Of a stretch of DNA of 64,000 nt, positions 1 to 20,978 are shown piece after piece (the stretch's first letter is position 1; each line of letters starts with the position of its first letter). The notes under the pieces were generated by a model. That model did not search any database, was not told where the DNA came from, and saw nothing but the letters and a program-made list of their open reading frames with translations. Origin of the DNA: Cystobacter fuscus (GTDB taxonomy: Bacteria > Myxococcota > Myxococcia > Myxococcales > Myxococcaceae); assembly GCF_002305875.1 (NCBI RefSeq), contig NZ_CP022098.1:5828001-5892000 (forward strand), in the 5' to 3' direction. The translations under genes and the position numbers were made by a program.

Positions 1-3000
1 ACGAGTCAGTCCCAGAACAAGCTCAATGAACGCGACGACCTGGTCTTCCCGGTCATGCGGGCCACGGACGCCACGCCCCCCCAGGTGGTGCTCGTCACCC
101 CCAAGAGCGGCGAGACGCTGGAGGGCAAGGTCACGGTGATGGCCTCGGCGAGCGACGACTTCGGCGTGGTGGCCGTGGACTTCTACGACGGCGAGACGCT
201 GATTGGCACGGATGTCCGGGAGCCCTATGGCGTGGTGTGGTCCACCCGGGGCCTGCCCAACGGCGTCCACACGCTGACGGCCCGGGCGCGGGATCTGGCG
301 GGCCACGTGGGCACCTCCCAGCCCGTGCAGGTGACGACGGACAACGACTACCAGGTGCCCGTGGTGGCCATCCGGGAGCCGCTCGCGGGTGCACGGGTCA
401 CGGGCTCCGTCCCCGTCCTCGTGGACGCCTCGGACAACAGGGGCATCAGCAAGCTGGAGCTCTACGCCGGGGCCAACCTGCGCGGCACCGTCAGCAATGG
501 GTTGGGGACCCTGACGTGGAATACGTGGTGGGAGAACCAGGTGGATCGCGCCTACTCCCTGACCGTCCGGGCCTACGACGCGGCCGGCAACGTGACGGTC
601 TCGGCCCCGGTGGTGGTGACCTATGCGGTCGAGATCACGCCGCCCACCGTGACGCTCACCGCGCCCGTCGGGGGGACGACGCTCTCGGGGACCGTGCAGG
701 TCTCGGGGACCGCGTCCGATGACTCCGGGGTGTCCAAGCTCGAGTTCCTCCTGGACGGCACGCTGCTGCGCTCCGCGCTCGGTGCCACCTACAGCTTCTA
801 TTGGGACACCCAGACGGCGGTCGGCGGCACCCACACGCTCACCGTGCGCGCCACCGATGCGCACGGCAACGTGGCCACGTCCTCGCGGACCGTGGTGATC
901 GATGTGACGGCCCCCGTGGTGGCCCTCACCTCACCGGGCGGCGGGGCCGCGCTTACGGGCGTGGTGTCGCTCCAGGCGGACGCCACGGACGACGTCGGGG
1001 TCACCTGGGTCGAATTCTACGTGGACGGGCTCTTCCTGGCCCGGGACACGACGGTGCCCTTCGGCGTGGACTGGGACACGACCTCGGAGGCGGACGGCAA
1101 CCACACGCTGACGGCCCGAGCCTACGACGCGCTCAACCGCATGACGACGAGCGCCGCCGTCACGGTGAGCACCCTCCAGCCCGTCAGCGCCCTCTACGAC
1201 GCCACGCTCCGCGTGCCCCGGTGCGCCACGCTCACGAGCGTGTGTGACACCACCAACCTCGTGAGGGAACGCGCGGGCGCCGAGCCCCATTCGCCCAACA
1301 CGCTTTACTCGGCCTGCTCCGAGGCCCCGTGGACCGGCGGGCGGGTGATCAAGCGCATCCGGTTGTCGAGCCTCGAGGGCACGCCGTTCGCGTCCGGCCA
1401 GCGCGTCCGGGCGGAGGTCCATGTCGGCTCGGTGTCACCCGGCACGGATGCGCTCGACCTGTTCATCACGAGCAACACCTCCACGCCCGTGTGGACCCTT
1501 CTGACCACGATCGTGCCGGCGACGAGCGGGGCACAGGTGCTCTCGGCGGAGTTCGACCTGCCCGCGGGCTTCTCGCAGGCGGTGCGTGCCCAGCTCCGCG
1601 TGGGGGGCAGCGCCAGCTCGGCCTGCAGCAACAGCTCCTCCTATAACGAGCAGGACGACCTGGCCTTCAGCGTGAAGTCCAACCCCACGGTGTCCCTCAC
1701 GGCACCCGCTCCGGGCGCGCGGGTGGCGGGCGTGGCCTCCGTGACGGCCTCGGCCCTCGATGACCAGGGCCTGGCGCGGGTCGAGTTCTTCGTGGATGGG
1801 ACGCTGATCGGCACGGACACCAGCGCGCCCTACGCGGTGGGCTGGAACACCGTGGGCGTGGCGGATGGCGCGCATGTGCTCACCGCCAGGGCCCATGACC
1901 TGGAGGGCAACATCGGGGACTCCGCCGCGGTCGGGGTGACGGTGGACAACACCCCTCCGGACGTGGTGCTCACGTCCCCCGCGCAGGGGGCCTTCATCCG
2001 GGGCGGTAGCGCCTTGCTCGAGGCCGCCGCCAGCGATGCGCAGGGGGTGGTGAAGGTCGAGTTCTACGTGGACGGGGTCTTGAGCGGCACGGACACCAGT
2101 GCGCCCTACACCATGACCTGGAACACCCTGTTCACGTCGGATGGGATCCACACGCTCACCGCGAAGGCCTTCGACACCACGGGCCTCGCGAGCACCTCCC
2201 CGGCGATCTGGGTGACGCTGGACAAGACCGCGCCGTCCACGGCGGACATCAGCGCTCCGGCGACGGGTTCCCGGCTCCAGGGCCTCGTCCAGATCAGCGC
2301 CACCGCCAGCGACAACATCGGGGTGGTGAAGGTCGAGTTCTTCGTGGATGGGACGCTGCTCGACACGGACACCAGCGCGCCCTACGCGGTGGGCTGGAAC
2401 ACCGTGGGCGTGGCGGATGGCGACCACAGACTCAGTGTGAAGGCCCATGACGGCGCGGGCAATGTTCGCACCTCCCTCGTCGACGTCTCGGTCATGATCG
2501 ACAACACCCCGCCGGAAGCGGCGCTCGTGTCCCCCGCGCGGGACACCTGGCTCCGGGGCACCCTCCTGCTCGAGGCCACCGCCAGCGACGGCGTGGGGGT
2601 CACACGGGTGGAGTTCTACGACGGCGCGACGCTGCTGGGGTCCGACACCAGCGCGCCCTACGCGCTGGACTGGAACACCTCGGGGGCGGCGGACGGGGCC
2701 CGCACGCTCACGGTGAAGGCGTTCGACGCCACGGGCAACGTGCGCACCTCGACGGGGGTGGCGGTGACGGTGGACAACACCGCGCCGGTCACGGCCGTCA
2801 CCGCTCCGACCCAGGGCGCCTTCGTCCGGGGAACGGTCCCGATCAGCGCCACCGCCAGTGACAACCTCGAGGTGGAGAAGGTCGAGTTCTACGCGGGCAC
2901 GACGCTGTTGGGCACCAACACCCTGGCCCCTCATGCCGTGAGCTGGGACACGACGGCGGTGGCCGATGGCCTCGTCACGCTCACCACGAAGGCCTATGAC

Positions 3001-3327
3001 CGGGTGGGCCATGTCACCGTGTCCGCCAGCCGCACGGTCACCGTGGACAACGCCGCGCCCACCGTGGCCATCACCTCGCCGGCCAACGGGGCCTCGCTGT
3101 GGTTGAGCGCCACGATCCAGGCGAGCGCGTCGGACAACATGGGCGTCACCCAGGTGGTCTTCTATGACGGCACCAAGGTGCTGGGCTCGGACAGCTCGGC
3201 GCCCTACAGCTACAGCTGGAACCTGCTGACCGGCGTGGCCAAGGGCAACCACACCCTCACGGCCAAGGCGTATGACGCGGCGGGCAACGTCACCACGTCC
3301 ACGGCCATCACGGTGAAGGTGAACTGA
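1..3327 (+). CDS. Ig-like repeat surface/secreted protein, 3' part
   Basis: The frame is open from base 1, so the start lies left of the window; 1108 codons are visible. The protein is built of about ten tandem bacterial Ig-like (Big_7-type) units of roughly 85-95 residues. Each runs from a P-x-V-x-L-T-x-P start through 'A(S/T)D(D/N)xGV' and 'VEFYVDGxLxGTDTSAPY' to 'HTLTAKAYDxxGN'. Between the fourth and fifth units sits a different Cys-containing module of about 160 residues (about 1185-1680) ending in NEQDDLAFSV. The first visible residues (NERDDLVFPV) are the end of a second copy of that module, so the full protein alternates module and Ig blocks. Likely an extracellular or cell-surface stalk or adhesion protein, possibly with an enzymatic head upstream; the exact role is not visible. 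No sorting motif follows the last Ig unit. Confidence 0.85.
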   Translation, partial: TSQSQNKLNERDDLVFPVMRATDATPPQVVLVTPKSGETLEGKVTVMASASDDFGVVAVDFYDGETLIGTDVREPYGVVWSTRGLPNGVHTLTARARDLAGHVGTSQPVQVTTDNDYQVPVVAIREPLAGARVTGSVPVLVDASDNRGISKLELYAGANLRGTVSNGLGTLTWNTWWENQVDRAYSLTVRAYDAAGNVTVSAPVVVTYAVEITPPTVTLTAPVGGTTLSGTVQVSGTASDDSGVSKLEFLLDGTLLRSALGATYSFYWDTQTAVGGTHTLTVRATDAHGNVATSSRTVVIDVTAPVVALTSPGGGAALTGVVSLQADATDDVGVTWVEFYVDGLFLARDTTVPFGVDWDTTSEADGNHTLTARAYDALNRMTTSAAVTVSTLQPVSALYDATLRVPRCATLTSVCDTTNLVRERAGAEPHSPNTLYSACSEAPWTGGRVIKRIRLSSLEGTPFASGQRVRAEVHVGSVSPGTDALDLFITSNTSTPVWTLLTTIVPATSGAQVLSAEFDLPAGFSQAVRAQLRVGGSASSACSNSSSYNEQDDLAFSVKSNPTVSLTAPAPGARVAGVASVTASALDDQGLARVEFFVDGTLIGTDTSAPYAVGWNTVGVADGAHVLTARAHDLEGNIGDSAAVGVTVDNTPPDVVLTSPAQGAFIRGGSALLEAAASDAQGVVKVEFYVDGVLSGTDTSAPYTMTWNTLFTSDGIHTLTAKAFDTTGLASTSPAIWVTLDKTAPSTADISAPATGSRLQGLVQISATASDNIGVVKVEFFVDGTLLDTDTSAPYAVGWNTVGVADGDHRLSVKAHDGAGNVRTSLVDVSVMIDNTPPEAALVSPARDTWLRGTLLLEATASDGVGVTRVEFYDGATLLGSDTSAPYALDWNTSGAADGARTLTVKAFDATGNVRTSTGVAVTVDNTAPVTAVTAPTQGAFVRGTVPISATASDNLEVEKVEFYAGTTLLGTNTLAPHAVSWDTTAVADGLVTLTTKAYDRVGHVTVSASRTVTVDNAAPTVAITSPANGASLWLSATIQASASDNMGVTQVVFYDGTKVLGSDSSAPYSYSWNLLTGVAKGNHTLTAKAYDAAGNVTTSTAITVKVN
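1780..1870 (+). repeat. Near-identical 91-bp block in Ig unit 5
   Basis: This block matches 2332-2422 at 89 of 91 positions, while the rest of the two Ig units differ clearly. The similarity is in the DNA and includes synonymous positions, which suggests recent recombination or gene conversion between repeats. Confidence 0.8.
2332..2422 (+). repeat. Second copy of the 91-bp block, in Ig unit 7
   Basis: Partner of 1780-1870. The two differences fall in the stretch coding for 'LIGTD' versus 'LLDTD'. The reading frame is the same in both copies. Confidence 0.8.
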
Positions 3328-4129: not shown

Positions 4130-4930
4130 GCGACTACCACCCTCCCCGAATTCCTCCGCGCTCGCCGCGAGCGGCTTCACCCCGAATCGACCGAGCGGCG
4201 TCGCACTCCCGGACTTCGTCGCGAGGAAGTCGCGGCGCGCGCCGGCGTGAGCGTCACCTGGTACACGTGGCTCGAACAAGGTCGCGGCGGCGTGCCGTCC
4301 GACGATGTGCTCGAACGCCTCGCTGGCGCACTCGAGCTCGACGACACGAATCGCGAGATGCTGTTCCTGCTCGCTCACGCGCGTCCGCCACCGCGCCGCT
4401 ACACGCCGCCCGCCGAGGTCACGCCGGCGCTGCAGCGCGTGCTCGACAACCTGCACGTGCCCGCGCTCGTGAAGACGCCGACGTTTCAGATCGTCGCGTG
4501 GAATCGCGCCGCCGTGGCGGTGATCGGCGATTACGCCGCGATTCCCGAGCGCGATCGCAACATGCTGCGCCGGGTCTTTCATCCCGAAGCCACCGCGTTC
4601 CTGCCGCATGCCGATGACATGCATCGCACGTGCCTCGCCGCGTTTCGCGTCGACATCGAGCGTGCGGGAGCATCAGAAGAAGCTGCCGCGCTCGTCGACG
4701 AGTTGATGGAGACGAGCGCGGACTTCCGCCGGCTGTGGGCCGAGAATGAGCTGAGCACGCACGGGGTGAGGTACAGGCGACTCGTCCGACCGAACGTCGG
4801 CGAGCTCGTGTTCGAGACGTCGGTGTTTTCCGTCGACGGTAGCGATGGCCTCAGCATGTTTGTCTTGTCACCGGTGGACGACGCTTCCGCGCGTGGGGTC
4901 GAACAGCTGCTCCGCGAGCTCGCCGAGTAG
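4127..4930 (+). CDS. XRE-family transcriptional regulator with MmyB-type ligand domain
   Basis: 267 residues. An N-terminal helix-turn-helix (about 5-80) contains 'RTPGLRREEVAARAGVSVTW' followed by 'YTWLEQGR', the signature of the HTH_31/MmyB family. The remaining 170 residues form the PAS-like MmyB ligand-binding domain ('ALVKTPTFQIVAWNRAA' and later 'RYRRLVRPNVGELVFE'). In Actinobacteria and Proteobacteria such regulators usually sit next to, and control, a divergent oxidoreductase or detoxification gene. Here the neighbour is the GST gene. It probably binds a small hydrophobic molecule or fatty-acid-like ligand and acts on the shared intergenic region. The start is chosen by the family's N-terminus. 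Confidence 0.88.
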   Translation: MATTTLPEFLRARRERLHPESTERRRTPGLRREEVAARAGVSVTWYTWLEQGRGGVPSDDVLERLAGALELDDTNREMLFLLAHARPPPRRYTPPAEVTPALQRVLDNLHVPALVKTPTFQIVAWNRAAVAVIGDYAAIPERDRNMLRRVFHPEATAFLPHADDMHRTCLAAFRVDIERAGASEEAAALVDELMETSADFRRLWAENELSTHGVRYRRLVRPNVGELVFETSVFSVDGSDGLSMFVLSPVDDASARGVEQLLRELAE

Positions 4931-5004
4931 TGCCCCCCCACCGCGCTGGCCTCCGCCAGCAAATCTCGAGAGGAGGGGGGCGTCCTCGCCCGCATGGATG
5001 AGGG

Positions 5005-5817
5005 TCAATCAGTCGCCGGCAGGAGCCTGGCCAGCAGTCGCCGGGCCGAGGAGGCCGCGAAGCCCCAGCCATGATCTCCCGGGTGCTCGGCATAGGCGTG
5101 CGGGAGACCGAGTTCGTTCATCTTCCGATGAACCCTGCGGTTCTGCTCCACCACCCGCGGATAGTCGTCGGTGCCGACCTCCAGCGCGAGCGTTGGCGGG
5201 GACCCGATGGCAGCGGCCTTCTCGAGCAGCGCTCCCGTGTCGTAGAGCCGCCGGATCTCACTGCCAACGGGCCCCCACACGCGGTCGTGCTCCGCCTCGG
5301 TGGGCATCATGCAACCGCTCGCGCGCTGTGAAGCATACGGATCGCCTTGCCGCTCCGAGGCATAGAAGGCCCCGGAGATGGCGAACGCGCGGGAGAACAT
5401 CCCCGGGTGGCGCAACGCGACGTGGACGGCGCCCGCGCCCCCCATGGAGAAGCCGCCAATGATTCGCGAACGCGCGGCCCGCTCCACGGGGAACGAGGCT
5501 TCGACGGCCGGGATGAGATCCTCCACCAGGTAGTCCTCGTACCGCTTGCCGGACGCATCGTTCATGAACCAGCGCCGGCCGCTCTCGGGAAAGACAAACA
5601 GCACGCGCTCCCTGTGCTCCGCCAGGAATTCCCTGCCATGACGTGCCCAGGACAACCGGTCCCCGGCAAACGCATGCAACATATAACAGACAGGGAACCC
5701 CCGGGCGGGTGGGGCTCCGGAGGGCGCCACCACGTAGGCCACCTTGGGCCGGCCCAGGGATGGCGCGTCATGCTCGAAATCGAAGCCGGGCAGATCTTCC
5801 TCGATGGGAATCAACAT
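5005..5817 (-). CDS. Esterase D-like alpha/beta hydrolase, last gene of the biosynthetic operon
   Basis: 270 residues from the ATG at 5817, preceded by a strong AGGAGG that overlaps the stop codon of the upstream adenylation gene (10-bp gap). A putative esterase family fold is seen: nucleophile elbow 'GGFSMGGAGA' (Ser124), acidic residue in 'EVGTDD' (about 217-218), and His249 in 'GDHGWGF'. There is no signal peptide, so it is probably cytoplasmic. In a cluster with a carrier protein and two adenylating enzymes, it could release or trim a thioester or ester intermediate, or unmask a product; this role is inference. The family also includes S-formylglutathione hydrolase and tributyrin esterases, which it resembles only generally. 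Confidence 0.85.
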   Translation of the reverse strand: MLIPIEEDLPGFDFEHDAPSLGRPKVAYVVAPSGAPPARGFPVCYMLHAFAGDRLSWARHGREFLAEHRERVLFVFPESGRRWFMNDASGKRYEDYLVEDLIPAVEASFPVERAARSRIIGGFSMGGAGAVHVALRHPGMFSRAFAISGAFYASERQGDPYASQRASGCMMPTEAEHDRVWGPVGSEIRRLYDTGALLEKAAAIGSPPTLALEVGTDDYPRVVEQNRRVHRKMNELGLPHAYAEHPGDHGWGFAASSARRLLARLLPATD

Positions 5818-5827
5818 CACGAACCTC

Positions 5828-7408
5828 CTAGGCGAGTGACACCAGCCTGGAAACCTCCTGCACATCCACCTTGCCGCGGCTGTTGCGCGGGAGGGCATCG
5901 AGCCGCAAGAGCCTCGAGGGAACCATGTAGGGAGGCAGACGCTCCGCGCAGTGGCGGCGGACCTCGCCCACGAGTTCCTCGGAGGGCTCTCGCAGCGCGA
6001 TGGCCGCGCCGAGCTGATCCCTCCCCTCGTCCTGGAACGTCACCACCGCGGCCTCCGTCACGGCGGGATGCTCGCGCAAGGCCTGCTCGAGTTCCTCGAG
6101 CTGGATGCGATAGCCACGAATCTTGACCAGACGGTCACGCCGGCCCAGGAAGCTGAGACGGCCGGACTCGACGCGGACGATGTCTCCCGTCCGGTAGAAC
6201 TTCCGCCCATCGGCTTCGCGCACGAAGCGCTGCTCCGTGAGCTCGTCGAGCCCTCGATACCCTTCCATGACCGTGGGAGAGCAGACGAGCAGCTCGCCCT
6301 CCTCGTTGGACGGACCCTCGGGCCCCTCCAGACGAATCTCCGCATAGGGACACGGAATGCCAATCGGCACCGGTCCGTCCGTGGCCAGGTCCTCCGGCCC
6401 GATATCGTGGAACGTGCACACGTTGGTCTCGGTGGGCCCGAACCAGTTCGAGAGGGAGCACCCCTGGGGCAGATGGGCCGCGAGCTCCTTGAGGCCCGGT
6501 TTGGGAATCACCTCTCCCGCGAGAATCACATGCCGGAGGGCGGAGCGCTCCAGCTCCCGCAGGGGCGCGCCCTCGTCGGGCCGCAGCAGCACGGAGGGGA
6601 CCGAATACCACACCGTGATTCCATTCTTGATGATGAACCGGCAGGTCTTCCCCACCTGGCCGAACAACCACTCCGGCACCGGCACGAGCGTCGCTCCGGC
6701 GAGCGCCGACGCGAAGAAGTCGAAGATGGTCAGGTCGAACGAGGGCGAGGCATGTTGGGAAAGGACATCCTCCGGCCGCAGCCCCAGATGCCGGGCCGTC
6801 CACTCCACGAAGGCCACGGCGCTGCGGTGGCTCTGCATCACGCCCTTGGGCCGGCCCGTCGAGCCCGAGGTGTACAACACATAGGCGACCGACATCTCAT
6901 CCACGGGGACCGCGGCCGATAGCGGCGCGCACGTCATCACCTCGCTCCAGGGGAGGCCACGGCCCTCCTTCGAGGACGGCGCGGCCCGGAGCGACAACAC
7001 GACCTCCTGCCGTGTCGAGCCTCCCGCCGCGGGCTCCGCCAGACCGCGAGCCTCGTCCTGGAGGAGCGCGGCGGCGATCTGCCGGGTGGTGATGAGGTGG
7101 CTGGGCCCCGCGTCCCCCAGGATGAGTGACGCGCGCGCGGCCGGCATCGTGTAGTCGATGGGCACGTAGCTGCCGCCAGCCAGCAACGCACCAAAGATGG
7201 ACACGGACAGCTCGGCGCCCTTGGGTAGACAGATGACCACGCGGTCTCCCGGGCGCAGCCCCGTCTCCACCAGGTACGCGGAGAGCCGGAGGGCCCGGTC
7301 GAACAGCTCCCCGTAGGTGAGCCGTCCTCCCGAGGTAACGAGCGCGGTCCGTGAGGTGAAGCGTGACGCCGCGCCCATGAGAATCGTCGATAACGTCTGC
7401 TCGCTCAT
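5828..7408 (-). CDS. Stand-alone amino-acid adenylation enzyme (NRPS A-domain)
   Basis: 526 residues from the ATG at 7408, chosen because AGGAGG lies just upstream; a longer reading to 7423 lacks this support. The A-domain core motifs are present in order: A3 'YTSGSTGRPKG' (about 179-189), A4 around 'SFDLTIFD' (Asp225, the amino-group anchor), A5 'NWFGPTETN' (321-329), A7 'YRTGDI', A8 'GRRDRLVKIRGYRIQLEELE', and A10 with Lys513. It should activate an alpha-amino acid as aminoacyl-AMP and load a carrier protein. It has no carrier domain of its own, and the only one in the operon is the C-terminus of the protein at 9981-11759. The first specificity positions read D-L-F, and I cannot name the substrate. 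Stand-alone A-domain plus acyl-CoA dehydrogenase resembles prolyl-carrier oxidation systems. Confidence 0.9.
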   Translation of the reverse strand: MSEQTLSTILMGAASRFTSRTALVTSGGRLTYGELFDRALRLSAYLVETGLRPGDRVVICLPKGAELSVSIFGALLAGGSYVPIDYTMPAARASLILGDAGPSHLITTRQIAAALLQDEARGLAEPAAGGSTRQEVVLSLRAAPSSKEGRGLPWSEVMTCAPLSAAVPVDEMSVAYVLYTSGSTGRPKGVMQSHRSAVAFVEWTARHLGLRPEDVLSQHASPSFDLTIFDFFASALAGATLVPVPEWLFGQVGKTCRFIIKNGITVWYSVPSVLLRPDEGAPLRELERSALRHVILAGEVIPKPGLKELAAHLPQGCSLSNWFGPTETNVCTFHDIGPEDLATDGPVPIGIPCPYAEIRLEGPEGPSNEEGELLVCSPTVMEGYRGLDELTEQRFVREADGRKFYRTGDIVRVESGRLSFLGRRDRLVKIRGYRIQLEELEQALREHPAVTEAAVVTFQDEGRDQLGAAIALREPSEELVGEVRRHCAERLPPYMVPSRLLRLDALPRNSRGKVDVQEVSRLVSLA

Positions 7409-7429
7409 CTTGAACCTCCTCAATCCCTG

Positions 7430-8560
7430 TCAGGAGCCCAACCCCAGCTCCGCGGCGATGATGACCTTCTGGATTTCCGAAGTGCCCGAGTACACGATTC
7501 CACCGAGGGCATCCCGGAGCTCGCGCCCCACTTCCGAGCCCTCCATGAGGCCCATGCCGCCATGGAGCCGGAACGCGTCCGTCCCGGAGGCGAGCGCGGC
7601 CTCGCTGACATACAACTTGGTGAGACTGGCCTCGCCCGGAGTCAACGCTCCCGTGGACAGCAGTGTCAGGGTATTCCGGACGAGGAGGTGGGACGTCCTG
7701 TAGCGGCTCAGCATGTCGACGATGCGTCCGGCGACATACTGGTTGTTTCCAATGGGACGGCCGAACTGGCGGCGCTCCTTCGCGTAGTCGAGCGCCGCCA
7801 GGAATTGCCTGCGCATGACGCCCAGGTGGAAGCCCGCCAGCATGCTCCTCTCCCACGTCAGGGCATGCTGGAAGACGGAGGCGCCCTGTCCCACGCCGCC
7901 CACCATCGCGCTCCGGGGAACCCGCACGTCGTCGAACCACACGGAGCTGACGGAGCAGCCATGCATGCCCATGCGCGGCTCGTCGATTCCGACTTCCAGA
8001 CCCCGGGTGGCCCGAGGCACCAGGAAGGCGCTCAGGCCCCGGAAGTGAAGGCGGGGGTCCTTCGTCGCGAGGACCAGGAAGTAGTCGGCCTCCCGGGCGT
8101 TCGTGATGAAGCACTTCGCCCCTTGCAGGACGTAGTCGTCGCCGTCGCGGCGGAAGCGGGTCTTGAGCGACATGACATCCGAGCCCGCCTCCGTTTCCGT
8201 GGCCGCGAGCGCCCCCATGACACTGCCGTCCCGCAGCGACGGCAGCAGCCCCTTGTGCTCCTCGCTCCCGAAGCACAGCAGCGGTGCGCTGAATCCGAAG
8301 CAGTGGGCACCGAGCGCCAGGGGGAAGCCCTCCCCCGCGCACCCCATCCCGACTCCCTCGAGGACCGAGAGCACCACCTCCACGTTCAGCGCCTCCTCGG
8401 GGATGAGCACCTCGAAGACGCCGAGCTCGGCGGCCTTCTTCCAGGCCTCGCGAATCCAGGCACGGGGATCGCTCCCGGACGGAGGCGCGCCCAGGGACTG
8501 TCCTAACGTTCTCGCCGCCCGCAGCTCGGGCGTTTCCTCGGGAAGAGCACTGTGATTCAT
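7430..8560 (-). CDS. Acyl-CoA dehydrogenase-like flavoprotein, probably acting on a carrier-bound acyl/aminoacyl thioester
   Basis: 376 residues with an AGGAG ribosome site. The ACAD fold is clear: 'GALAATETEAGSDVMSLKT' (flavin/substrate strand), 'YAKERRQFGRPIG', 'FRLHGGMGLM' and a terminal 'SGTSEIQK'. The Glu that serves as base in short- and medium-chain enzymes (YEGTSxIQ) is Ser358 here ('YSGTSEIQ'). Instead Glu237 lies in 'LTWERSMLAG', matching the position of the base in isovaleryl-CoA dehydrogenase ('LERLVLAG'). That placement suits alpha-branched or amino-substituted thioesters. Together with the adjacent A-domain and carrier, it probably desaturates an aminoacyl-S-carrier. It lies 26 bp after the TrpB-like gene and 21 bp before the A-domain gene. 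Confidence 0.88.
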   Translation of the reverse strand: MNHSALPEETPELRAARTLGQSLGAPPSGSDPRAWIREAWKKAAELGVFEVLIPEEALNVEVVLSVLEGVGMGCAGEGFPLALGAHCFGFSAPLLCFGSEEHKGLLPSLRDGSVMGALAATETEAGSDVMSLKTRFRRDGDDYVLQGAKCFITNAREADYFLVLATKDPRLHFRGLSAFLVPRATRGLEVGIDEPRMGMHGCSVSSVWFDDVRVPRSAMVGGVGQGASVFQHALTWERSMLAGFHLGVMRRQFLAALDYAKERRQFGRPIGNNQYVAGRIVDMLSRYRTSHLLVRNTLTLLSTGALTPGEASLTKLYVSEAALASGTDAFRLHGGMGLMEGSEVGRELRDALGGIVYSGTSEIQKVIIAAELGLGS

Positions 8561-8586
8561 GGCATCGCTCCTGGCGTTGGGCGGGA

Positions 8587-9975
8587 CTACGGCGACGAGG
8601 ACTGCTCGATTCGCGCGTTGAACTCGTGGACGTGACGGAGGCTCGTGGTCAGCATCGCGTCATCGGGGAGATCCGACTCCAACGTGTTGTTCCGGGCGCG
8701 CTCGTAGGCACTCAGGTCGAAGAGCCCGTGGCCGCTGATATTCATGAGGATGACCCGCGGCGGAGCCTCGGCCGGGTTCTCCCTGGCCAGACGGATGGCA
8801 CCCGCCACGGCGTGGGCGGACTCCGGGGCCGGTAGGATCCCCTCGCTCTCGGCGAACAGGAGCCCCGCGTCGAGTGCACTGGGCTGGGGCACCGCGAGGG
8901 CGTCGAAGCCCTTGTCGGCGTACATCGCGCTCAGGAAGGCCGAGGTCCCGTGGTAGCGCAGTCCTCCCGCGAAGATGGGTGGCGCGATGTAGTGGCTTCC
9001 CAGCGTGTACATCCGGTGGATGGGCGTCGTGCCGGAGAAGTCATTGACGTCATACGCATAGACGCCACGGGTGAGCTTCGGACACGCCGCTGGCTCCACC
9101 GCCATCAGCCGGAGCTGGCTCTTCCGCTCCCGGGCGGCCCGGAGGAACGGCAACCCCACGCCGCCGAAGTTGCTGCCAGCCCCCATGCAGGCAACGACGT
9201 AATCCGGGAAGTCTCCCAGGGCATCCATCTGCTCGACGGCCTCGCTGCCAATCAGCGTCTGGTGCAACACCACGCAGTTCTCCCCGCTACCCACGGCGAA
9301 GCGGATCCGCTTGCCTCCATGGGCGATCTCCAGCGCCTCGCCCGTGGCGGTCGCCAGGCTGCCCACGCGGCCCGGATCCCTCTGCAGCGCCTTGCGGCCC
9401 ACCTCCGTGACGTCGCTCGGGCTCTCATGGACGGTGGCGCCGAAGATCTCCATCATCGCCCGGCGCTGCGGCTTCTGGCGCAGGCTCGCGCCCACCATGA
9501 ACACCGTGCAGCGCAGACCGAACAGCTTGCAGGCATACGCCAGCGCGGTCCCCCACTGCCCGGCGCCCGTCCCCGTGACCAGCTCCTCCACGCCGGCCTT
9601 CGCGTAGTAGTAGGCCTGGGCGAGCGCCGAGTTGAGTTTGTGGCTCCCCGAGACGTTGAGCCCCTCGTATTTGTAATAGAGCCGCGCGTTGACCCCCAGG
9701 CGCTGCTCGAGCTGCCGCGCCCGGCGCAGGGGCGTGGGGCGGTATTGGGCATACAGCTCCAGCAACCGTTCCGGAATCTCGTGGAACGGCTCCTGGGTGC
9801 TGTTGGATTGCATCACCAGGGAGCGCGGCTGCTGGGGGACGACGCTCACGCGGCGCGCCCCGTGGCCGGGCAGCGAGACCTCCTTGGGAACGTCGTGGAC
9901 CGCGTACTGAGGGTAGTCGAAGAGGAAGTTGCACCACTGCTTCGGAATCGAGACGCCCCGTTGATGTCTGGACAT
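8587..9975 (-). CDS. TrpB2-like PLP-dependent enzyme with catalytic Glu replaced
   Basis: 462 residues from the ATG at 9975 (AAGGA eight bases upstream). An alternative ATG at 9984 would overlap the previous stop as ATGA. The protein matches the TrpB2 (TIGR01415-type) tryptophan-synthase-beta-like family throughout: 'RPTPLRRARQLE', the PLP lysine in 'GSHKLN' (Lys113), 'GQWGTALAYA', 'QKPQRR', 'GAGSNFGG', 'AVEPAACPKLTRG', 'GGLRYHGTSA', 'SEGILPAPESAHA' and 'NISGHG'. In TrpB enzymes the Glu of 'ETGAGQ' drives aminoacrylate formation. Here the motif is 'GTGAGQ', with Gly135 at that site. No trpA is nearby. It is therefore unlikely to be housekeeping tryptophan synthase and probably performs another PLP chemistry (beta-replacement, deamination or synthase) within this pathway. 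Confidence 0.88.
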   Translation of the reverse strand: MSRHQRGVSIPKQWCNFLFDYPQYAVHDVPKEVSLPGHGARRVSVVPQQPRSLVMQSNSTQEPFHEIPERLLELYAQYRPTPLRRARQLEQRLGVNARLYYKYEGLNVSGSHKLNSALAQAYYYAKAGVEELVTGTGAGQWGTALAYACKLFGLRCTVFMVGASLRQKPQRRAMMEIFGATVHESPSDVTEVGRKALQRDPGRVGSLATATGEALEIAHGGKRIRFAVGSGENCVVLHQTLIGSEAVEQMDALGDFPDYVVACMGAGSNFGGVGLPFLRAARERKSQLRLMAVEPAACPKLTRGVYAYDVNDFSGTTPIHRMYTLGSHYIAPPIFAGGLRYHGTSAFLSAMYADKGFDALAVPQPSALDAGLLFAESEGILPAPESAHAVAGAIRLARENPAEAPPRVILMNISGHGLFDLSAYERARNNTLESDLPDDAMLTTSLRHVHEFNARIEQSSSP

Positions 9976-9980
9976 GTTTG

Positions 9981-11759
9981 TCATCCTTCGTGAGAGGTCT
10001 TGCCAAGGCGCAGCACGAACTCCACCAGGTCGCCCACGGTGATGAGTTCCGCATCCAGGAGATCCTCATCGTCGATCTCCCGCGCGAGCTCCTTCTCCAG
10101 GGTGGTCAGGAGCTGGGCGAACTGGAGCGAGTTGATGGCCAGGTCGGCATACAGCTCCAACGCTTCGTCCAGGGCGCCGGTGTCCTTGAACAGGGGGAGC
10201 ACCTTCGCGAGCGTGGTGCCGACGATCGTGCGGGCCACCTGCCTCTCGTCCACCGTCATCAGGGGCAGCACGCCGAGCAGCTCCGCGAGCTTGCGCTGCA
10301 TGCCGGGCGCCACCTTGGCCAGGTTGACGACGGGGCGCAGCTTGCCGGAGCGCTCGCGCTGGATGGCGTCCGTCCGCTGGGTGAGCACCTCGACGCCCTT
10401 GCCCAGCATCTCCTCGAGCACCGCCGTGGTCTTCTCGAGGTTGGCGGGGTCGAAGCCCACACCGGGCACGTACTGCACGACGTACCGCTCCGCCGACAGG
10501 CCCACGAACCGGTACTGCGCGTGGGGGAGCGTGTCCTTGATGGCACCCAGAATCTGGAACGTGGTCACCGAGCGGCCATCGGGCGGCTGGATCTGATCGG
10601 CTTCCTTGCCCTCCAGACCATCCAGGGTCGTGCAGACGAGCGAGTCCGATACCCGGAACGGCCCGCGCGGACGCGCCACGTCGCCAACGTCGTAGCGGAT
10701 CAACGGCATGGTGTCGTTCAAGAGATCGGTGACCACGATCCGGGACAGCTCACCCGCTGCCGCCAGCGTCTGCTCTCCGGGTCGCATGAACTCCACGTGG
10801 AGACGGTCGGATTCGACGAGCAGCGGCGCGTTCTTCTCCGCCTGCCACGCCATGAAGCCAAATTCGTTGCTCGCGTAGATCTTCAACGGCTCGCACCCGA
10901 AGACCTGCCGGATGGCGTCCGCTCCCTCGGGCGAGAGCACCTCCGAGGTGGTCCACACCTGCTTGACGGTGGGCAGCCGCAGCTGCTCTTTGTGCATCCA
11001 TCGGGCCAGCCCGGCGATGACGCTCGCGAAGCCCATCAGGCTCGCGGGCTCGAGCGCGCTCACGGACTCGAAGAGCTCCGGAGGAGGCAGCAGGGAATTG
11101 ACGGTGAAGGCCTTGTTGAACGCCTGGGTCTGCGCCTCCTCGGGTGGCGAGTCCGTGCCATGCCGCTTCGCCTTCTTGGGCAGGGCGGTGAAGCGCTGCT
11201 GGTGATCCTTCATCTGGCGCGTCAGGGGCTCGGATTCGCGCTCCGCGGACTTCTCGGAAGCGGACTCTCCCGGGGTGTTGGCGGAACCCACCTGCCGCGC
11301 CTCCTGGGGAGTCCTGACCACGAAGTCCCACGGGAAGACATAGGTGAGCTGCTTCGAGGAGCTCGAGATGAGTTGCAGGTGGGGCTTCTGGAAACGCCAC
11401 TTGCGGAAGATGAAGACGCGGTTGTCGAGCAGCAGGGTGAAGGGGACGCCCGTGCTGCCGCTGGTGGGTTTGCGGATCAGCTCGGAGGAGTCGTAGCGGG
11501 AGTTGAGCAGCCGGGCCTCTCCCGCGGCCTGGAGCTGGGACTTGCTCACGACGGGCAGCCGCTGGAACCATTCGAGGAAACCTTCCAGGGGAGGAACGGC
11601 TCCGAACGGACCATACAGCTCACGGTAGAAAGGGACGTTCTCGATGGCTGAAACGACCCGCTCCCGAAGTAATTCCAGAGGGTTGCTCGAGAGGTAGCCG
11701 GTAGAGCCACTCTCCACTTCCTGCATCGCCGCGGTCAGTGCGAGGTTGGTGTAGTGCAT
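9981..11759 (-). CDS. PaaK/CapK-like adenylate-forming ligase fused to a C-terminal acyl carrier domain
   Basis: 592 residues from the ATG at 11759. A GTG at 11801 would place the start inside the intergenic hairpin and is rejected. Residues about 1-480 follow the phenylacetate-CoA ligase/F390-synthetase-like fold: 'IENVPFYRELYG', 'KPTSGSTGVPFTLLLDN' (ATP loop), 'IYASNEFGFMA' and 'LIRYDVGDVARP'. An insert near 190-230 is rich in Lys, Glu and Ser and may be a flexible linker. Residues about 500-592 look like a carrier protein: Ser544 in 'DLAINSLQFAQLL' is the likely phosphopantetheine site. The protein would activate a carboxylic acid and hold it, or an aminoacyl group from the separate A-domain enzyme, as a thioester. 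It is the only carrier in the cluster. Confidence 0.85.
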   Translation of the reverse strand: MHYTNLALTAAMQEVESGSTGYLSSNPLELLRERVVSAIENVPFYRELYGPFGAVPPLEGFLEWFQRLPVVSKSQLQAAGEARLLNSRYDSSELIRKPTSGSTGVPFTLLLDNRVFIFRKWRFQKPHLQLISSSSKQLTYVFPWDFVVRTPQEARQVGSANTPGESASEKSAERESEPLTRQMKDHQQRFTALPKKAKRHGTDSPPEEAQTQAFNKAFTVNSLLPPPELFESVSALEPASLMGFASVIAGLARWMHKEQLRLPTVKQVWTTSEVLSPEGADAIRQVFGCEPLKIYASNEFGFMAWQAEKNAPLLVESDRLHVEFMRPGEQTLAAAGELSRIVVTDLLNDTMPLIRYDVGDVARPRGPFRVSDSLVCTTLDGLEGKEADQIQPPDGRSVTTFQILGAIKDTLPHAQYRFVGLSAERYVVQYVPGVGFDPANLEKTTAVLEEMLGKGVEVLTQRTDAIQRERSGKLRPVVNLAKVAPGMQRKLAELLGVLPLMTVDERQVARTIVGTTLAKVLPLFKDTGALDEALELYADLAINSLQFAQLLTTLEKELAREIDDEDLLDAELITVGDLVEFVLRLGKTSHEG

Positions 11760-11780
11760 TGATTTCTCTGCCTGGTGAGA

Positions 11781-11816
11781 GGAGGGCCACCCGTGGTGCA
11801 CCGCGGGTGGCCCTCC
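11781..11816. terminator. Strong hairpin between repeat-protein gene and enzyme genes
   Basis: A perfect 12-bp stem (GGAGGGCCACCC at 11781-11792, GGGTGGCCCTCC at 11805-11816) surrounds a 12-base loop that itself contains GGTGCACC. There is no U-tract, so it may act as a partial terminator or as an RNA-stabilising end. It lies 46 bp after the stop of the 150-residue gene and 21 bp before the ligase start. The likely effect is more transcript for the small protein than for the enzymes. Confidence 0.65.
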
Positions 11817-11862
11817 GTTGGAAGCGGACTACTTCAAGGACTCACGGCTGAGGCGGAACGGG

Positions 11863-12315
11863 CTACTTCGCCTCGGCCTTGAGCGCGAGCTGCTTCTTGG
11901 CGCCGAACTGCCGGAGCTGGGCGGTGCGGGCGAGCGTCGTCTTCGAGGGGTGTTCGGTGACCGGCCCCACGCCCACGACGTGGACGGCGGCGTGGAGGGT
12001 CTTCCGCGCGCTGAGTTGGCGCAGCTGCATGGGCCGGGCCACGGCCTTCTTGGTTTCGGATTGCCCCACGGACTTCGTCAGGCGGGCCGCGAGCTGCTTC
12101 ACGGCCTTGAGTTGCCGCAGCCGCCCCTGCTTGGGCGCCTTGGTGTTGTCCCCCGCCAGGCCCGCGACGCTCGCGGCGGCGCGAAGCGTCATCGTGCTCT
12201 TCTCGCGGAGCCTCCGGATCTGCTTGACCCGGCCCATGCGGGGCTGGATCGCCCGGATGTTGGTGGAAGTCTCAGCGTCGGTTCCGGACTGCGTGTCTGC
12301 GTTCTTCTTGCTCAT
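11863..12315 (-). CDS. Basic repeat protein, candidate precursor or carrier substrate of the cluster
   Basis: 150 residues, with an excellent ribosome site (AAGGAGG, seven bases before ATG 12315). After an acidic/polar leader of about 20 residues come four degenerate repeats spaced 33-36 residues apart. Their cores are 'RVKQIRRLREKSTMTLRAA' (29-47), 'RLRQLKAVKQLAARL' (65-79), 'RPMQLRQLSARKTLHAAV' (94-111) and 'RTAQLRQFGAKKQLALKA' (130-147). The consensus is RxxQLRQLxAxKxLxAA, often followed by VxG. It has no Cys or Trp, no signal peptide and no membrane segment, and is rich in Lys and Arg. The repeats resemble multi-core substrates of peptide-modifying systems, but an RNA/DNA-binding or structural role is possible. 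I do not recognise a family. Being first in the operon and followed by a hairpin fits a precursor gene. Confidence 0.75.
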   Translation of the reverse strand: MSKKNADTQSGTDAETSTNIRAIQPRMGRVKQIRRLREKSTMTLRAAASVAGLAGDNTKAPKQGRLRQLKAVKQLAARLTKSVGQSETKKAVARPMQLRQLSARKTLHAAVHVVGVGPVTEHPSKTTLARTAQLRQFGAKKQLALKAEAK

Positions 12316-13042
12316 GCTGCCTCCTTACTGCGGGTGAAACACCTGGGATGAAGCAATAGACCGCCTGCACGGGCGCCTTCCCACATGGGCCCGCCCGACA
12401 AAGGAATTTGAAATGAAGCACTGGAGGGGTACGAGTGCCGGACGTGCCGGCCGATGGTGGGCGGGCGCGCCTTGATATGGCCGAGGACCCGATATCCGTG
12501 AAGCACCCGCCACCACCTGGAGACACCGTGGCGGGTCACATCACGCAGACAGCTCCAGCCGATGGAACTTCGAGCGGCTTCCGTATCCCAGACGAGAACC
12601 AGAGGCTACGAACTCGTCATGAAACGTATTGGGTGGGGCAATCCCATACGACAATTCGAGTATAGGGTTGCAGGCGCTTTCACATGACATAGAGAGTCGT
12701 CTCCAAGCTGAACGCCATGTCATGAGTAGTGCTCTGCGTTCATCCATGAAGGACTCTCCCCGATACATCGTGATGCGAAAACACTAACGCGAGGGTCTGA
12801 CATGGATAGCCCGTGAAACCGGAACAGGCAAACTGCCGGAGCACAGTCCAGACGGAGTCTTCCTGTGTCCCGGAATGATGCTCGGAGACCTTCCCGCGGC
12901 CTTCAACGAGCGATGCCCGCGACCCGTGGAACGGCAGGCACGGCACGCGCCCACTCACGTCCGGGTCCGTGAACCATCTTTTCGGGCCACGTCCGCCGAT
13001 TCGATGGGATGATGGGGCTCTCGCCGGTCGCGCAGTGCTCTC
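12316..13042. other. 727-bp divergent intergenic region
   Basis: No convincing gene is seen here. The GC content is lower than in the neighbours, especially from 12590 to 12800. It must hold the promoter of the leftward biosynthetic operon and that of the rightward Crp/Fnr gene. A 9-bp hairpin is described separately. Short open frames on both strands lack ribosome sites and recognisable protein sequence. Confidence 0.6.
12505..12536. promoter_or_regulatory. Inverted repeat in the divergent promoter region
   Basis: ACCCGCCAC (12505-12513) and GTGGCGGGT (12528-12536) form a perfect 9-bp stem with a 14-base loop. It lies about 190 bp upstream of the repeat-protein gene. It could be an operator or an RNA hairpin; no evidence separates the two. 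Confidence 0.35.
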
Positions 13043-13648
13043 ATGAACCACAAGCTCGTCGACTACTTCCGCCGCATCTCTCCTCTGTCGGACGAGGAAG
13101 CCCAGGCCATCCTGGACAGCATGGTGGTGAAGACCTGTCCGAAAGGTACGCACCTGCTCATGGCGGGTCAGGTCAGCACCGAGGCCTACTTCGTCCTCCA
13201 GGGCTGCGTCCGCCAGTACTACGTCGTCGATGGTGAAGAGCGGAGCAACGGGTTCTTCACCGAGGACGAATGGGTCCTCTCGATTCACAGCATGATGAAC
13301 CAGACCCCGGCGGATCACTTCCTGGTCTGCGCGGAAGACACCACGGTGGTGGTGGGCACCGAGCAACGCGAGGGGGACCTGTATCGACGCTTCCCTCGCT
13401 TCGAGAGCATCTCCCGGATGGTGATGCAGAAGGTCCTGGCGGAACAGCAGGAGCGGTTCGCTTCCTATCTCACCGATACCCCGGAGCAGCGCTACCTCAA
13501 GCTCTCGAAGACGCGGCCGGACATCCTCCAGCGGATTCCCCAGTACCAACTGGCCAGCTACATCGGTGTGAAGCCCGAGTCGCTGAGCCGGATCCGCAAG
13601 CGTATCGCCACGCGCGGCAAGCCGGCTACGCCGCGACGGAAGGCGTGA
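13043..13648 (+). CDS. Crp/Fnr-family transcriptional regulator
   Basis: 201 residues. Residues about 10-115 are a cyclic-nucleotide-binding-like beta roll ('CPKGTHLLMAGQVSTEAYFV' and following). Residues about 145-190 hold the winged helix ('RIPQYQLASYIGVKPESLSR'). No Cys cluster for an iron-sulfur centre is present, so it is not an Fnr oxygen sensor. The subgroup is the short one often found beside DUF4386 membrane proteins, as here: its 3' end overlaps the convergent DUF4386 gene by 23 bp. It may also act on the divergent biosynthetic operon, which starts 728 bp away. The ligand is unknown. Confidence 0.88.
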   Translation: MNHKLVDYFRRISPLSDEEAQAILDSMVVKTCPKGTHLLMAGQVSTEAYFVLQGCVRQYYVVDGEERSNGFFTEDEWVLSIHSMMNQTPADHFLVCAEDTTVVVGTEQREGDLYRRFPRFESISRMVMQKVLAEQQERFASYLTDTPEQRYLKLSKTRPDILQRIPQYQLASYIGVKPESLSRIRKRIATRGKPATPRRKA

Positions 13649-14291
13649 CCGTCCGGAACCCCTTGGCGATGAGCCAGCCGCCGAGGAACAGCTCGAACAG
13701 GCCCCCGGGCCCGGAGAAGAGGGGGCCCCACGGCAGCCCGAAGAGCTCGAGCACGGCCCCCAGCGCCAGAAGCCCGTAGCCCACCGCGCCCACCAGCGGG
13801 AGCAACGAGGGAAGAAGCCGGGAGCGGTACAGCGACAGGCAGAACGCCACACTGCCGGCCCCCAGGATGATCATCGCGAGCTGGTACGCCCAGAAGTTCC
13901 CCTTCGAGAGAAGTGTGGACAGGGTCACCAGCTCCGGCGTCGTCTGCCCTCGCGCGGATTCTCCGAGCTGAAGGATGCACAGAAGGAACACCACCCCGAC
14001 GATGAGGATCAGCGCCTCCATGATCCGCGTGCAGACGTACGCGAGGGCGATGCTCGGGCTCCGCTCGCGGAGGATCGGAAAGAACAGCACGCCAATCCCG
14101 ACGACGGTGATGGAGTTCAACAGGAGCAGCAGCGCGCCCCCGACGAACGGCGTCCTCTGACCGACCACCATGGCCAGGTGCTCCGGCTCCTTCAGGACGG
14201 AGGTGACGAGCGCGGTGCCGATGCCGTAGGCGAAGAACGGAAGGAGAAAGAGAATTCCCAGGGAGCGGGTGTGAAGGCGGGTGGTGTTCAT
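13626..14291 (-). CDS. DUF4386 family integral membrane protein
   Basis: 221 residues from the ATG at 14291; an upstream in-frame start at 14360 adds a non-membrane, Arg/Pro-rich stretch and is less likely. About six hydrophobic segments are visible, for example 'GILFLLPFFAYGIGTAL', 'LILIVGVVFLLCIL' and 'LLPLVGAVGYGLLALGAV'. The family is of unknown function and is commonly encoded next to Crp/Fnr or PadR-like regulators. Here it converges on such a regulator. Confidence 0.82.
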   Translation of the reverse strand: MNTTRLHTRSLGILFLLPFFAYGIGTALVTSVLKEPEHLAMVVGQRTPFVGGALLLLLNSITVVGIGVLFFPILRERSPSIALAYVCTRIMEALILIVGVVFLLCILQLGESARGQTTPELVTLSTLLSKGNFWAYQLAMIILGAGSVAFCLSLYRSRLLPSLLPLVGAVGYGLLALGAVLELFGLPWGPLFSGPGGLFELFLGGWLIAKGFRTVTPSVAA

Positions 14292-14435
14292 CGCGAGGGC
14301 TCCAGAACGTTCAGCGACGTTGTGGCCGCGTAGAGTAGGGGGGGGCGCCCTTGTCCGCATTGACGAGGGTTAATAAACCGGGCGGGTGTGAGCGCGGGTC
14401 CGACTCCGTCGGGTGTCAGGGCTCCAGGCGCGCGC

Positions 14436-17400
14436 CTACCCCTCCCAGGTGGCCATCATCGCGCGCACCCGTTCGTAGCGCTCGAGCAGCTCGGCGCGCT
14501 TCGCGGTGAAGAGCACCATGAAGCCCACCACGCCCACGCCCAGCAGCGACAGGAAGGCGGCGCCCAGGCGGTGCTCCTGGATGCCGAAGCGCGCCAGGTT
14601 GGCCACGACGCACGTCACCATGAAGGCGCTGCCCAGGTACACGTAGGAGCGGATGCGCAGCGCCATGCCGGCCGCCACGCCCACCACGCACAGCGCCACG
14701 CACCCCAGCATGGCCCGGCCGTCCTGGAACAGCAGCGGCTTCCACGCCCCGGCCACGTAGACGAGGGTGACGGCCAGCGCGCGCAGCTTCACCCGCGTGT
14801 CGGGCTCGAGCGCGTCGTGGAAGACGCGCAGCAGCACCAGCAGGGACAGGCCCGCGGGGATGACGTAGTACTGCGGCTCTCCCGACCCCGTGCCCAGCCA
14901 GACGAAGAAGAGCGCCGTGTTGAAGGCACCCGCCGACACCAGCGAGCCCATGCCCCGCTGCGAGGGCTGGGCCGCCAGCGCCGCGAAGTGCGCCGCGTAG
15001 CCCACCAGCAGGGCCGCCACGGCCAGGGGCTTGCTCCACGGCGCGGCGAGCAGACCCGCGAGCGGGAAGAGGTAGGCCCCCCACAGCGCGGGCCGGCGGA
15101 AGGCGGGCAGCCCCGCCCCCTCGCGCTGGACGAAGACATGCAGTCCGGAGAAGAGCACGCCGCCCACCAGCGCCGCGAGACTGTCCGCCGTGCCCAGCCC
15201 CGAGGCCAGCGCGTGCAGCCGCACCGCCAGATAGCCCAGCACCAGCGTCCCCTGCGCGAGGAAGGCCGAGCCCTCGTCCCGCTCGCGCACACCCCGGCGC
15301 ACGAGCGCGAAGAAGAGCACCGTCAGACACACGCAGTCGACGAGGGCCTCACGCACCACTCCGGCGGCCCCGGGCACCAGCACCAGCCCGGCCAGCACCT
15401 CCGCCAGGGCCACCCCCGCGAAGGCATGCCCCACCCGCCGACGCACGGACGCGCCCGCCACGGAGAGCACCAGCGTGGCCAGCAGCGCGCTGATCGCCCC
15501 GAAGTAGGGGAGGAGGAAGGCCGCCCCCCGGCCCGTGGAGTAGATGGCACCCACGTGCACGAGCAGTCCGTGCGCCACCAGCAACGAGGCCCACCAGCCC
15601 ATCGCCTCGCGCTCGCGGCGCCGGTACACCACCGTCCACGCCACGCCCAGGCTCGCGACCAGACACACCGCGATGCCCGGATGCGTGAGGCTCCGCAGCC
15701 CGAGGAAGGACAGCAGTGACAGCACCCATCCGGAGTGATGGAGGGCCGCCCCCACGTCCGCGCCGCGTCCCTCCACCCATGTGCCCACCAGGCACAGCAC
15801 CAGGCCCGTGACGGCCACCACTGCGGGAGACCAGAGCGGCGGCACCGCCGCGAGGATCACCCCGGCCAGCAGCGCCGTGGCCAGGTTCGCCATGACGCGC
15901 TCACGCGTCACCATGAGCACCAGCGCGGCGAGCCCCGCGAGCGCCGCCACCGGCAACGGCAGTGCCCCTGGTCCCTCGTCCAGCAGGTGCTGCGACAGGG
16001 GCACGAGCGTGGCGAGCGACCCCGCGGCCCACAGCGGCTCGCTCCACGTGCCGGGCAGCCCCGGGGACAGCCGCTCGCTCCACCGCGAGAGCGAGCGCTG
16101 GAGGCGCCCCACCTGGCAGAGCGCGGAGAGCACCGCCGCGCCGAGCCCCACCCCGGCGAAGGCCAGCGCGGCCTCCGTCGTCCAGACCAGGAAGCCGTGC
16201 TCGGGCGTCTGGCCCAGCGAGGCGCTGGCGAGCGTGAGCAGCGAGGCGGTCAGCAGGTAGGCGCGGGACAGCAGGAAGGCACTCACGCCCAACACACCGG
16301 CCAGCAGGAGGAGCGACCCGGGCGTCGGCGTCCGCGCCACGTTCGTCCACACCGCGAGGCCGAGCGCCCCCATCACGGTCACGAGCCGCAGGCGCGGGTC
16401 CGGGGGCGAGCGGAACAGGGACCACAGCCGCGCGGGGACATGGTGCGTGAGGAAGCCGAGCCCCAGCAGCAGGAGGATGGCGCCGGGATGGAGCGACAGG
16501 TGCGCCGCCAGCACCGCCACGCCGACCCCCACGCGCACCGAGGGCATCGGCCCGGGCAGCAGGACGAGCGAGGCCACCAGCGGCACGAAGGACCACTCGG
16601 GCGAGCCGCCTACCGTCATCGCCACGCCCACGCCCCCCAGCGCGAACTGCATCCACCATGAGAACTCCCGAACGGGCGGCTCCTCGTCTCCCCCCAGCAC
16701 CAGCCGGCGGATGGCCTGCTTGTGCTCCACGGCCCGCACCACCGCGAGCGCGACCAGGGGCAGCAGGTAGATGCCGGGCCGGAGCCGCGTGGACTCGATT
16801 CCGAGCACGAGGACGTACAGCGGCGCGAGGGACGCGAAGAAGGGCTGGCGGTTGGCCCGTGTCCACGCCAGCGGCAGCACCATGGCGCCCACGAGGACGA
16901 CGGGCGTCGCGAGGCCCTTCGACACGCCACAGGCCGCGAGCAGGAAGGGCATCGCGCACAGGCTCGCCACGAGCGCGAAGCGGCGCTCACCGGTGAGCAC
17001 CCGGAAGGTCCTGGGGTGCGACTCGAGCAGCGCGAGCCCGCTGAACAGGGTGGCCATGGCCAGCGTGCGCGGGGCATCCAGGTGAATGCCCAGCGACAGG
17101 CCCGCCCAGAAGGAGGCGGCGAGGAGGCTGACGGTGGGGTGCAGCACCCGCGCGGTGAGGAGGGCCGCGAGCGCCGCGCCGAGCATCAGGGCATACGACT
17201 GCCGTCCCGCGGCCGAGAGCACCACCAGCATGGGGAAGACGAGCGCCACGAGCCCCGCGGTGAGGGTATTCGAGTTGCGGCCCCAGCGCGCGGCGGCCAC
17301 CGAGGCCCCCAACGACCAGAGGACGAGCAGCGCCATGGACAGCGAGGGCGTCATCCACGGCCAGACGGAGAAGGCGGCCACACGCGGCAGGAGGGCGATG

Positions 17401-20941: not shown

Positions 20942-20978
20942 GACCATCCTCTCGTTCACGCGCTTCGTTGTCAGGGAG

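Follow-up and report, generated by a model that had tools for sequence, protein, structure and literature searches.

The closest described systems are the triads that convert proline to pyrrole or dehydroproline, whose members we take to be PltF/PltE/PltL, RedM/RedW/RedO and AnaC/AnaB. In a 64,000-nucleotide stretch of Cystobacter fuscus DNA (contig NZ_CP022098.1, positions 5,828,001 to 5,892,000; hereafter the window), an operon of six minus-strand genes likewise encodes a stand-alone adenylation domain (A-domain) with a partly L-Pro-like code, a flavoenzyme resembling prolyl dehydrogenases and one carrier domain. The operon differs from the triads in that (i) its carrier is fused to a PaaK-like ligase, (ii) positions of the A-domain pocket are altered, (iii) the dehydrogenase scores under the RedW cut-off, (iv) no polyketide synthase or condensation partner is encoded among the six genes and (v) a TrpB-like enzyme and a repeat protein are present in addition.

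We tentatively read the operon as a compact carrier-protein pathway in which proline would be loaded and oxidised, the TrpB-like enzyme would carry out a non-indole step, the ligase would join units and the repeat protein would serve as a scaffold or acceptor. Its chemistry is likely to be partly known, that of a proline-oxidising carrier triad; the setting is new and includes two unexplained parts, a TrpB-like enzyme that lacks its catalytic Glu and the repeat protein. The operon would couple the well-understood oxidation of proline on a carrier to parts that the literature searches did not turn up together. A preliminary description of this DNA had known of no pathway with this set, and no published cluster with these genes was found among the open-access literature matches listed (no cluster database was compared).

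A conserved six-gene unit

The operon consists of the open reading frames (ORFs) 12315-11863, 11801-9981, 9984-8587, 8560-7430, 7423-5828 and 5898-5005. From 5' to 3' these encode a basic repeat protein, a PaaK/CapK-like ligase-carrier, a TrpB-like pyridoxal phosphate (PLP) enzyme, an acyl-CoA-dehydrogenase-like (ACAD-like) flavoenzyme, a stand-alone A-domain and a serine esterase. Three orthologous loci back the starts of the ligase-carrier at ATG 11759, the TrpB-like enzyme at 9975, the A-domain at ATG 7408 and the esterase at ATG 5817; the alternative GTG start of the ligase-carrier at 11801 falls within a hairpin. With the supported starts, the gaps between the enzyme genes are 5, 26, 21 and 10 bp, and 103 bp separate the end of the repeat gene from the ligase gene. 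The preliminary description had reported six genes on one strand with enzyme-gene gaps of 5 to 26 bp, and this layout is borne out. Its gene-type labels also hold: Pfam and NCBIfam recognise the carrier domain, the TrpB-like PLP enzyme, the ACAD-like enzyme, the A-domain and the esterase, the PaaK-like label resting on weak scores. The esterase (5005..5817; PF00756, with a GFSMGG motif) closes the conserved unit. No promoter-like sites were found within 4500-13100, and no RNA element reached Rfam gathering scores within 4900-13100.

All six genes occur in the same order in 4 of 96 family genomes, the window's own and three others (loci L055, L056 and L057). When 24 kb of the window was compared with 20 kb per locus, nucleotide homology to the three other loci was confined to window positions 5012-12375, with identity across the operon of 74-76% in long stretches and 68-74% in shorter ones. 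A scan of ten flanking ORFs (seven of the window, three of L055) found none common to the two loci; L055 and L056 have flanks in common, and those of L057 match neither. The six genes form one unit, because the same genes in the same order are found in four genomes and homology stops at the operon ends. This conservation exceeds chance, as the three other genomes keep the whole set in unchanged order with no flanks in common with the window. Rare adjacency of the homologues in other genomes, which the preliminary description had named as evidence against its reading, was not observed: they adjoin in all four genomes that have the operon, though these are few among the 96.

Searches with single genes point to the same genomes. 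An operon-type TrpB-like gene (82-83% identity) was found in three family genomes besides the window's own, and repeat-protein matches at E 1.2e-30 or better fall in the same four, with three further weak matches at E 0.002-0.007. In profile searches, which were confined to Myxococcota (195 phylum genomes), the repeat protein again led to these four genomes, with two more matches at E about 1e-3. The ligase-carrier profile gave full-length matches in 4 of the 195, which are the operon genomes, and partial ligase matches without the carrier in seven others. A GTDB contig scan for close ligase-carrier relatives, which reaches close relatives only and may omit records of the window's own genome, led to Myxococcus dinghuensis and M. 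eversor; PMC10435759 mentions both species in its reference list only.

Probable loading and oxidation of proline

The A-domain (5828..7408) has the pocket residues D-L-F-Y-I-A-W-V-C-K in the window; the three orthologues have Phe instead of the Cys. The positions were assigned by eye from an alignment with four comparators and are given in what we take to be GrsA numbering. These comparators, A-domains that adjoin ACAD-like genes at other Myxococcaceae loci, hold the full L(L/F)YLALVC between D and K. The same string is the code of stand-alone L-Pro A-domains given in the available text of PMC3874040, and the operon A-domain agrees with it at 6 of 8 positions in the window and at 5 of 8 in the three orthologues. 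Three pocket positions contact proline in a homology model of CcbC (PMC3874040, same text); at these the operon A-domain holds the consensus L, A and V. In a PDB search, L-proline-carrier ligases were its best stand-alone matches. The ten-letter code was absent from a literature search.

In profile and PDB searches, the ACAD-like enzyme (7430..8560) comes nearest to prolyl-carrier dehydrogenases. Its top NCBIfam model is RedW (E 4.8e-91), followed by PigA, and its top PDB chain is 4irn, a dehydrogenase of prolyl-ACP (acyl carrier protein). It shares 40-43% identity with the dehydrogenases that accompany Pro-code A-domains at the four comparator loci, and the next matches, among those listed, lie at about 33-36%. 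Glu237, invariant in the four orthologues, lines up with the WER/WEK Glu of three PDB chains, the catalytic residue of such dehydrogenases. The carrier domain (about 10014-10214, with Ser544 counted from ATG 11759) scores 25.7 bits with PF00550 (cut-off 20.8) and is fused to the ligase.

We read these parts as a proline-oxidising triad because the L-Pro-like pocket, the dehydrogenase families and the fused carrier are found together, and the operon probably loads a prolyl group on its carrier and oxidises it. In a first step, the A-domain would adenylate L-proline or a close analogue and load it on the carrier, the only one in the operon. In a second step, the ACAD-like enzyme would oxidise the prolyl-S-carrier to a dehydroprolyl or pyrrole-2-carboxyl thioester. 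As predictions from sequence comparison, these two steps are well supported. The preliminary description had proposed that an amino acid, once loaded by the A-domain on the single carrier, is desaturated by the ACAD-like enzyme; this is supported, and the pocket residues together with the families nearest the dehydrogenase narrow the substrate towards proline.

Elsewhere in the window's own genome, a dehydrogenase and an A-domain with the full L-Pro code form a second such pair (L095 8411-10947; G000:C1, about 7471410-7473946), which may belong to the DKxanthene cluster. The same kind of pair occurs in genome G025 (L096), and similar dehydrogenases are found in many family genomes.

The TrpB-like enzyme and the ligase

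The TrpB-like enzyme (8587..9975) matches TrpB2-type tryptophan synthase beta chains (6hul, 4qys; NF009057) over most of its length, 6hul at 2.7e-102. It scores above the cut-off of NF009057 (541.8 vs 366 bits) and below that of TIGR01415 (476.3 vs 518.85 bits). The PLP-binding Lys (Lys116, kept in all four operon copies) and the remainder of the TGAGQWG loop are common to both, but where the TrpB2-type chains have their catalytic Glu, ahead of TGAGQWG, each of the four operon copies has Gly (Gly138, codon 9571-9573, counted from ATG 9984). By comparison, Glu stands at this position in 15 of 15 other matches at E 1e-60 or better in the 96 family genomes (11, one of them partial, plus 4); for two of the 15, L117 and L118, a pattern search did not show the GSHK motif around the PLP Lys.

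According to the available text of PMC12727527, this Glu is essential to Trp formation, and a bacterial TrpB with Glu105 changed to Gly, Ala or Ser accepts phenols; an engineered Tm9D8 E105G is named in the accessible portion of PMC12909874. The same residue is altered in the operon enzyme as in these engineered “tyrosine synthases”, but the operon enzyme is natural and comes from the distant TrpB2 lineage. By analogy, a non-indole nucleophile is likely, because the same Glu change in the laboratory lets TrpB use phenols, and the loss of the Glu makes indole an unlikely partner. The earlier proposal that this enzyme adds or builds a side chain is kept in this modified form. In a third step, for which the support is moderate, the enzyme would convert serine or phosphoserine to a PLP-bound aminoacrylate and add a non-indole nucleophile, possibly a phenol or the pyrrole or pyrroline unit itself. 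As the operon enzyme has by nature the change that was engineered into the laboratory “tyrosine synthase”, it would make natural non-indole beta-substitution directly testable.

The ligase-carrier (9981..11759) was delimited by NCBIfam, Pfam and an orthologue alignment. For its ligase part the best NCBIfam models are of the DVU_1553 type and PaaK, at scores far under their cut-offs (28.9 vs 646.3 bits for the curated PaaK model TIGR02155), and four weak PDB matches point the same way; Pfam gives the carrier only. Like PaaK/CapK-like AMP (adenosine monophosphate) ligases, it has SGSTG, RYDVGD and SGK stretches, which we take to be adenylation motifs; it differs from them in scoring far under every curated cut-off and in its fused carrier. 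An AlphaFold model of the ligase-carrier has a mean pLDDT (predicted local distance difference test) of 40.9. In a fourth step, the PaaK-like domain might adenylate a second acid and help to join the units, and the esterase might free the product or clear stalled thioesters; the support for this step is weak. The preliminary description had put forward a second acid or the repeat protein as what the ligase might activate. The best partial relative of the ligase elsewhere in the phylum (G036) sits among sugar-nucleotide and glycosyltransferase genes and is uninformative for the role in the operon.

The repeat protein and competing readings

The repeat protein (11863..12315, 150 aa, with AGGAGG ahead of its ATG) is present at all four loci, always as the first gene of the operon. 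It has an isoelectric point (pI) of 11.85, and its orthologues (pI 11.85-12.0) are rich in Lys, Arg and Gln and contain no Cys, Trp or Tyr. Four basic blocks lie at residues about 25-41, 61-79, 93-110 and 128-146, with the core [R/K]-Q-[L/F/V/I]-x-[A/R]-x-[K/R] and single exceptions in block four of two orthologues. Among the four orthologues, 48 of 73 columns are invariant inside the blocks vs 11 of 79 outside, the block limits having been set after the alignment was seen. The internal repeat is clear in two orthologues, where none of 500 shuffles attains the best self-match, and modest in the remaining two, where 18 and 11 of 500 do. By a simple counting method, the ratio of nonsynonymous to synonymous substitution (dN/dS) is 0.37-0.67, the highest of the six genes. 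An AlphaFold model of low confidence (mean pLDDT 57.2) has four separate helices, one per block. Searches of Pfam and NCBIfam (E 0.01), PADLOC (E 0.001) and PHROGs (E 0.1) gave nothing for the protein, and a phage origin was set aside on the last of these.

Between the repeat stop and the ligase start, all four loci have a GC-rich hairpin with an outer stem of 12-15 bp (11781..11816, minus strand, in the window). The stems of L055, L056 and L057 are related in sequence, and that of the window much less so. Folding z-scores of the gap are -4.50 in the window, -1.03 at L055, -1.15 at L056 and -4.07 at L057, an unusually stable fold in the window and at L057 only. Within 4500-13100, five terminator-like sites were called vs 3.4 expected. 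Attenuation at the hairpin is a suggestion only, because the hairpin has no T run and is not among these sites.

The repeat protein may be a substrate, a scaffold or a bystander. An abundant docking partner or acceptor might fit most of the data, though weakly: made in excess, the protein could act as a scaffold on which the acidic carrier docks at several sites, or it could accept the acyl group.

Several observations weigh against the proposed carrier-protein pathway. Pfam and NCBIfam find no condensation domain (as the preliminary description had stated, supposing that standard cluster finders may therefore miss the operon), no transporter and no second carrier among the six genes. The A-domain pocket departs from the L-Pro code at 299 (Ile) and 322 (Trp), and also at 331 (Phe) in the three orthologues, and in the PDB search the L-proline-carrier ligases come behind linear gramicidin synthase and one more multi-domain peptide synthetase. 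The ACAD-like enzyme does not reach the RedW equivalog cut-off (305 vs 650 bits). In a tree with only two “ordinary” rows, whose groups reflect identity to the operon enzyme (limit 37.5%) rather than function, the four operon dehydrogenases form their own deep branch, with unresolved placement and long branches flagged. Also, the hairpin, besides lacking a T run, has unremarkable z-scores in two of the four loci (L055 and L056).

There are at least three other ways to read the operon. It might encode an ordinary small-molecule pathway to pyrrole or dehydroproline, with the repeat protein merely a co-transcribed regulator or a binder of nucleic acids or other polyanions. Its pI of about 12, its Lys/Arg/Gln-rich composition and its low predicted order would suit such a protein, and stand-alone L-Pro A-domains serve several pyrrole pathways, as the available text of PMC3874040 describes. 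We find this reading rather doubtful, however, given that the repeat gene is kept at the operon head in all four loci and that its matches outside these loci are weak only.

The altered pocket positions and the deep branch of the ACAD-like enzyme would also fit a second reading, that the A-domain and dehydrogenase convert an amino acid other than proline to a different dehydroaminoacyl thioester and that the TrpB-like protein is a structural pseudoenzyme. Plant TSB-like proteins would be its counterparts: they mostly have Ala in place of the Glu, do not synthesise Trp and, where tested, made no Tyr from phenol (PMC12727527, available text). This combination appears unlikely to us. The three proline-contact positions hold consensus residues. 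In the TrpB-like gene the PLP Lys and the remainder of the TGAGQWG loop are intact, and no other gene of the six is under stronger constraint, its dN/dS being the lowest (0.11-0.19, by simple counting). The TrpB-like protein taken alone could be a non-indole enzyme or a pseudoenzyme; its dN/dS and the retained Lys and loop speak for an enzyme.

In the third reading, which we hold to be quite unlikely, the repeat protein is itself the substrate, and a proline-derived acyl unit or a TrpB-derived alanyl unit would be placed on a conserved Lys or Gln of each block. Its gene heads the operon in all four loci, and the blocks are conserved while the spacers drift. The carrier region is acidic (17 D+E vs 7 K+R) and the repeats very basic, although basic repeats would equally fit scaffold or polyanion-binding roles. 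A hairpin after the precursor gene is a layout of precursor genes for ribosomally synthesised and post-translationally modified peptides (RiPPs). A hairpin does lie 3' of the repeat gene in all four loci, but it is not called a terminator; moreover, no known RiPP maturase, protease or exporter was found among the six genes by Pfam and NCBIfam, and the first 24 residues of the repeat protein are little conserved (5 invariant in four orthologues).

Least probable of all is a reading in which an A-domain, carrier and dehydrogenase in the style of nonribosomal peptide synthetases yield a pyrrole or dehydroprolyl thioester from proline, the TrpB-like enzyme without its Glu adds an alanyl unit through non-indole beta-substitution, and the group is placed at each repeat of a dedicated basic protein made in excess. 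If true, this would be a new type of ribosomal-protein modification. More generally, the conserved repeat protein prompts the question of whether a ribosomally made protein can receive acyl groups from a carrier or serve as their docking site.

Neighbouring genes and other observations

Two further candidates were considered and rejected. A defence system was set aside with no PADLOC match at E 0.001. Plasmid-borne copies were set aside as well: the ligase-carrier has matches in 12 plasmid records, in no case over 80% of its length, and the best ten of the 12 all stop at query residue 503 or earlier. These listed matches lack the carrier, because their alignments end at or before that residue.

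The ten flanking ORFs encode two regulators, an immunoglobulin (Ig)-domain protein, an NAD-dependent epimerase-family protein, a metallopeptidase, two DUF proteins and three proteins without a match. The NAD-dependent epimerase-family protein lies at 20030-20959, 7.7 kb away from the operon. The metallopeptidase, of family M57, is in the L055 flank and has no counterpart among the scanned window ORFs. Near the operon, on the opposite strand, 55-3327 encodes a protein of 1090 aa that includes ten stretches of the bacterial Ig-like type (Big_7).

On the other side, a 1.4 kb unit at about 12977-14382 holds convergent genes for a Crp-like regulator and a DUF4386 membrane protein. It occurs near full-length and 93-97% identical in 18 other genomes of six genera (96 searched), far more alike than the adjoining operon (about 75%). 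Its end is nearly constant at the DUF4386 side and more variable at the opposite side, and by sequence comparison the unit looks horizontally spread. Beyond it, a minus-strand ORF of 1805 aa at 14436-19853 lies within a strong AT skew (0.28-0.47).

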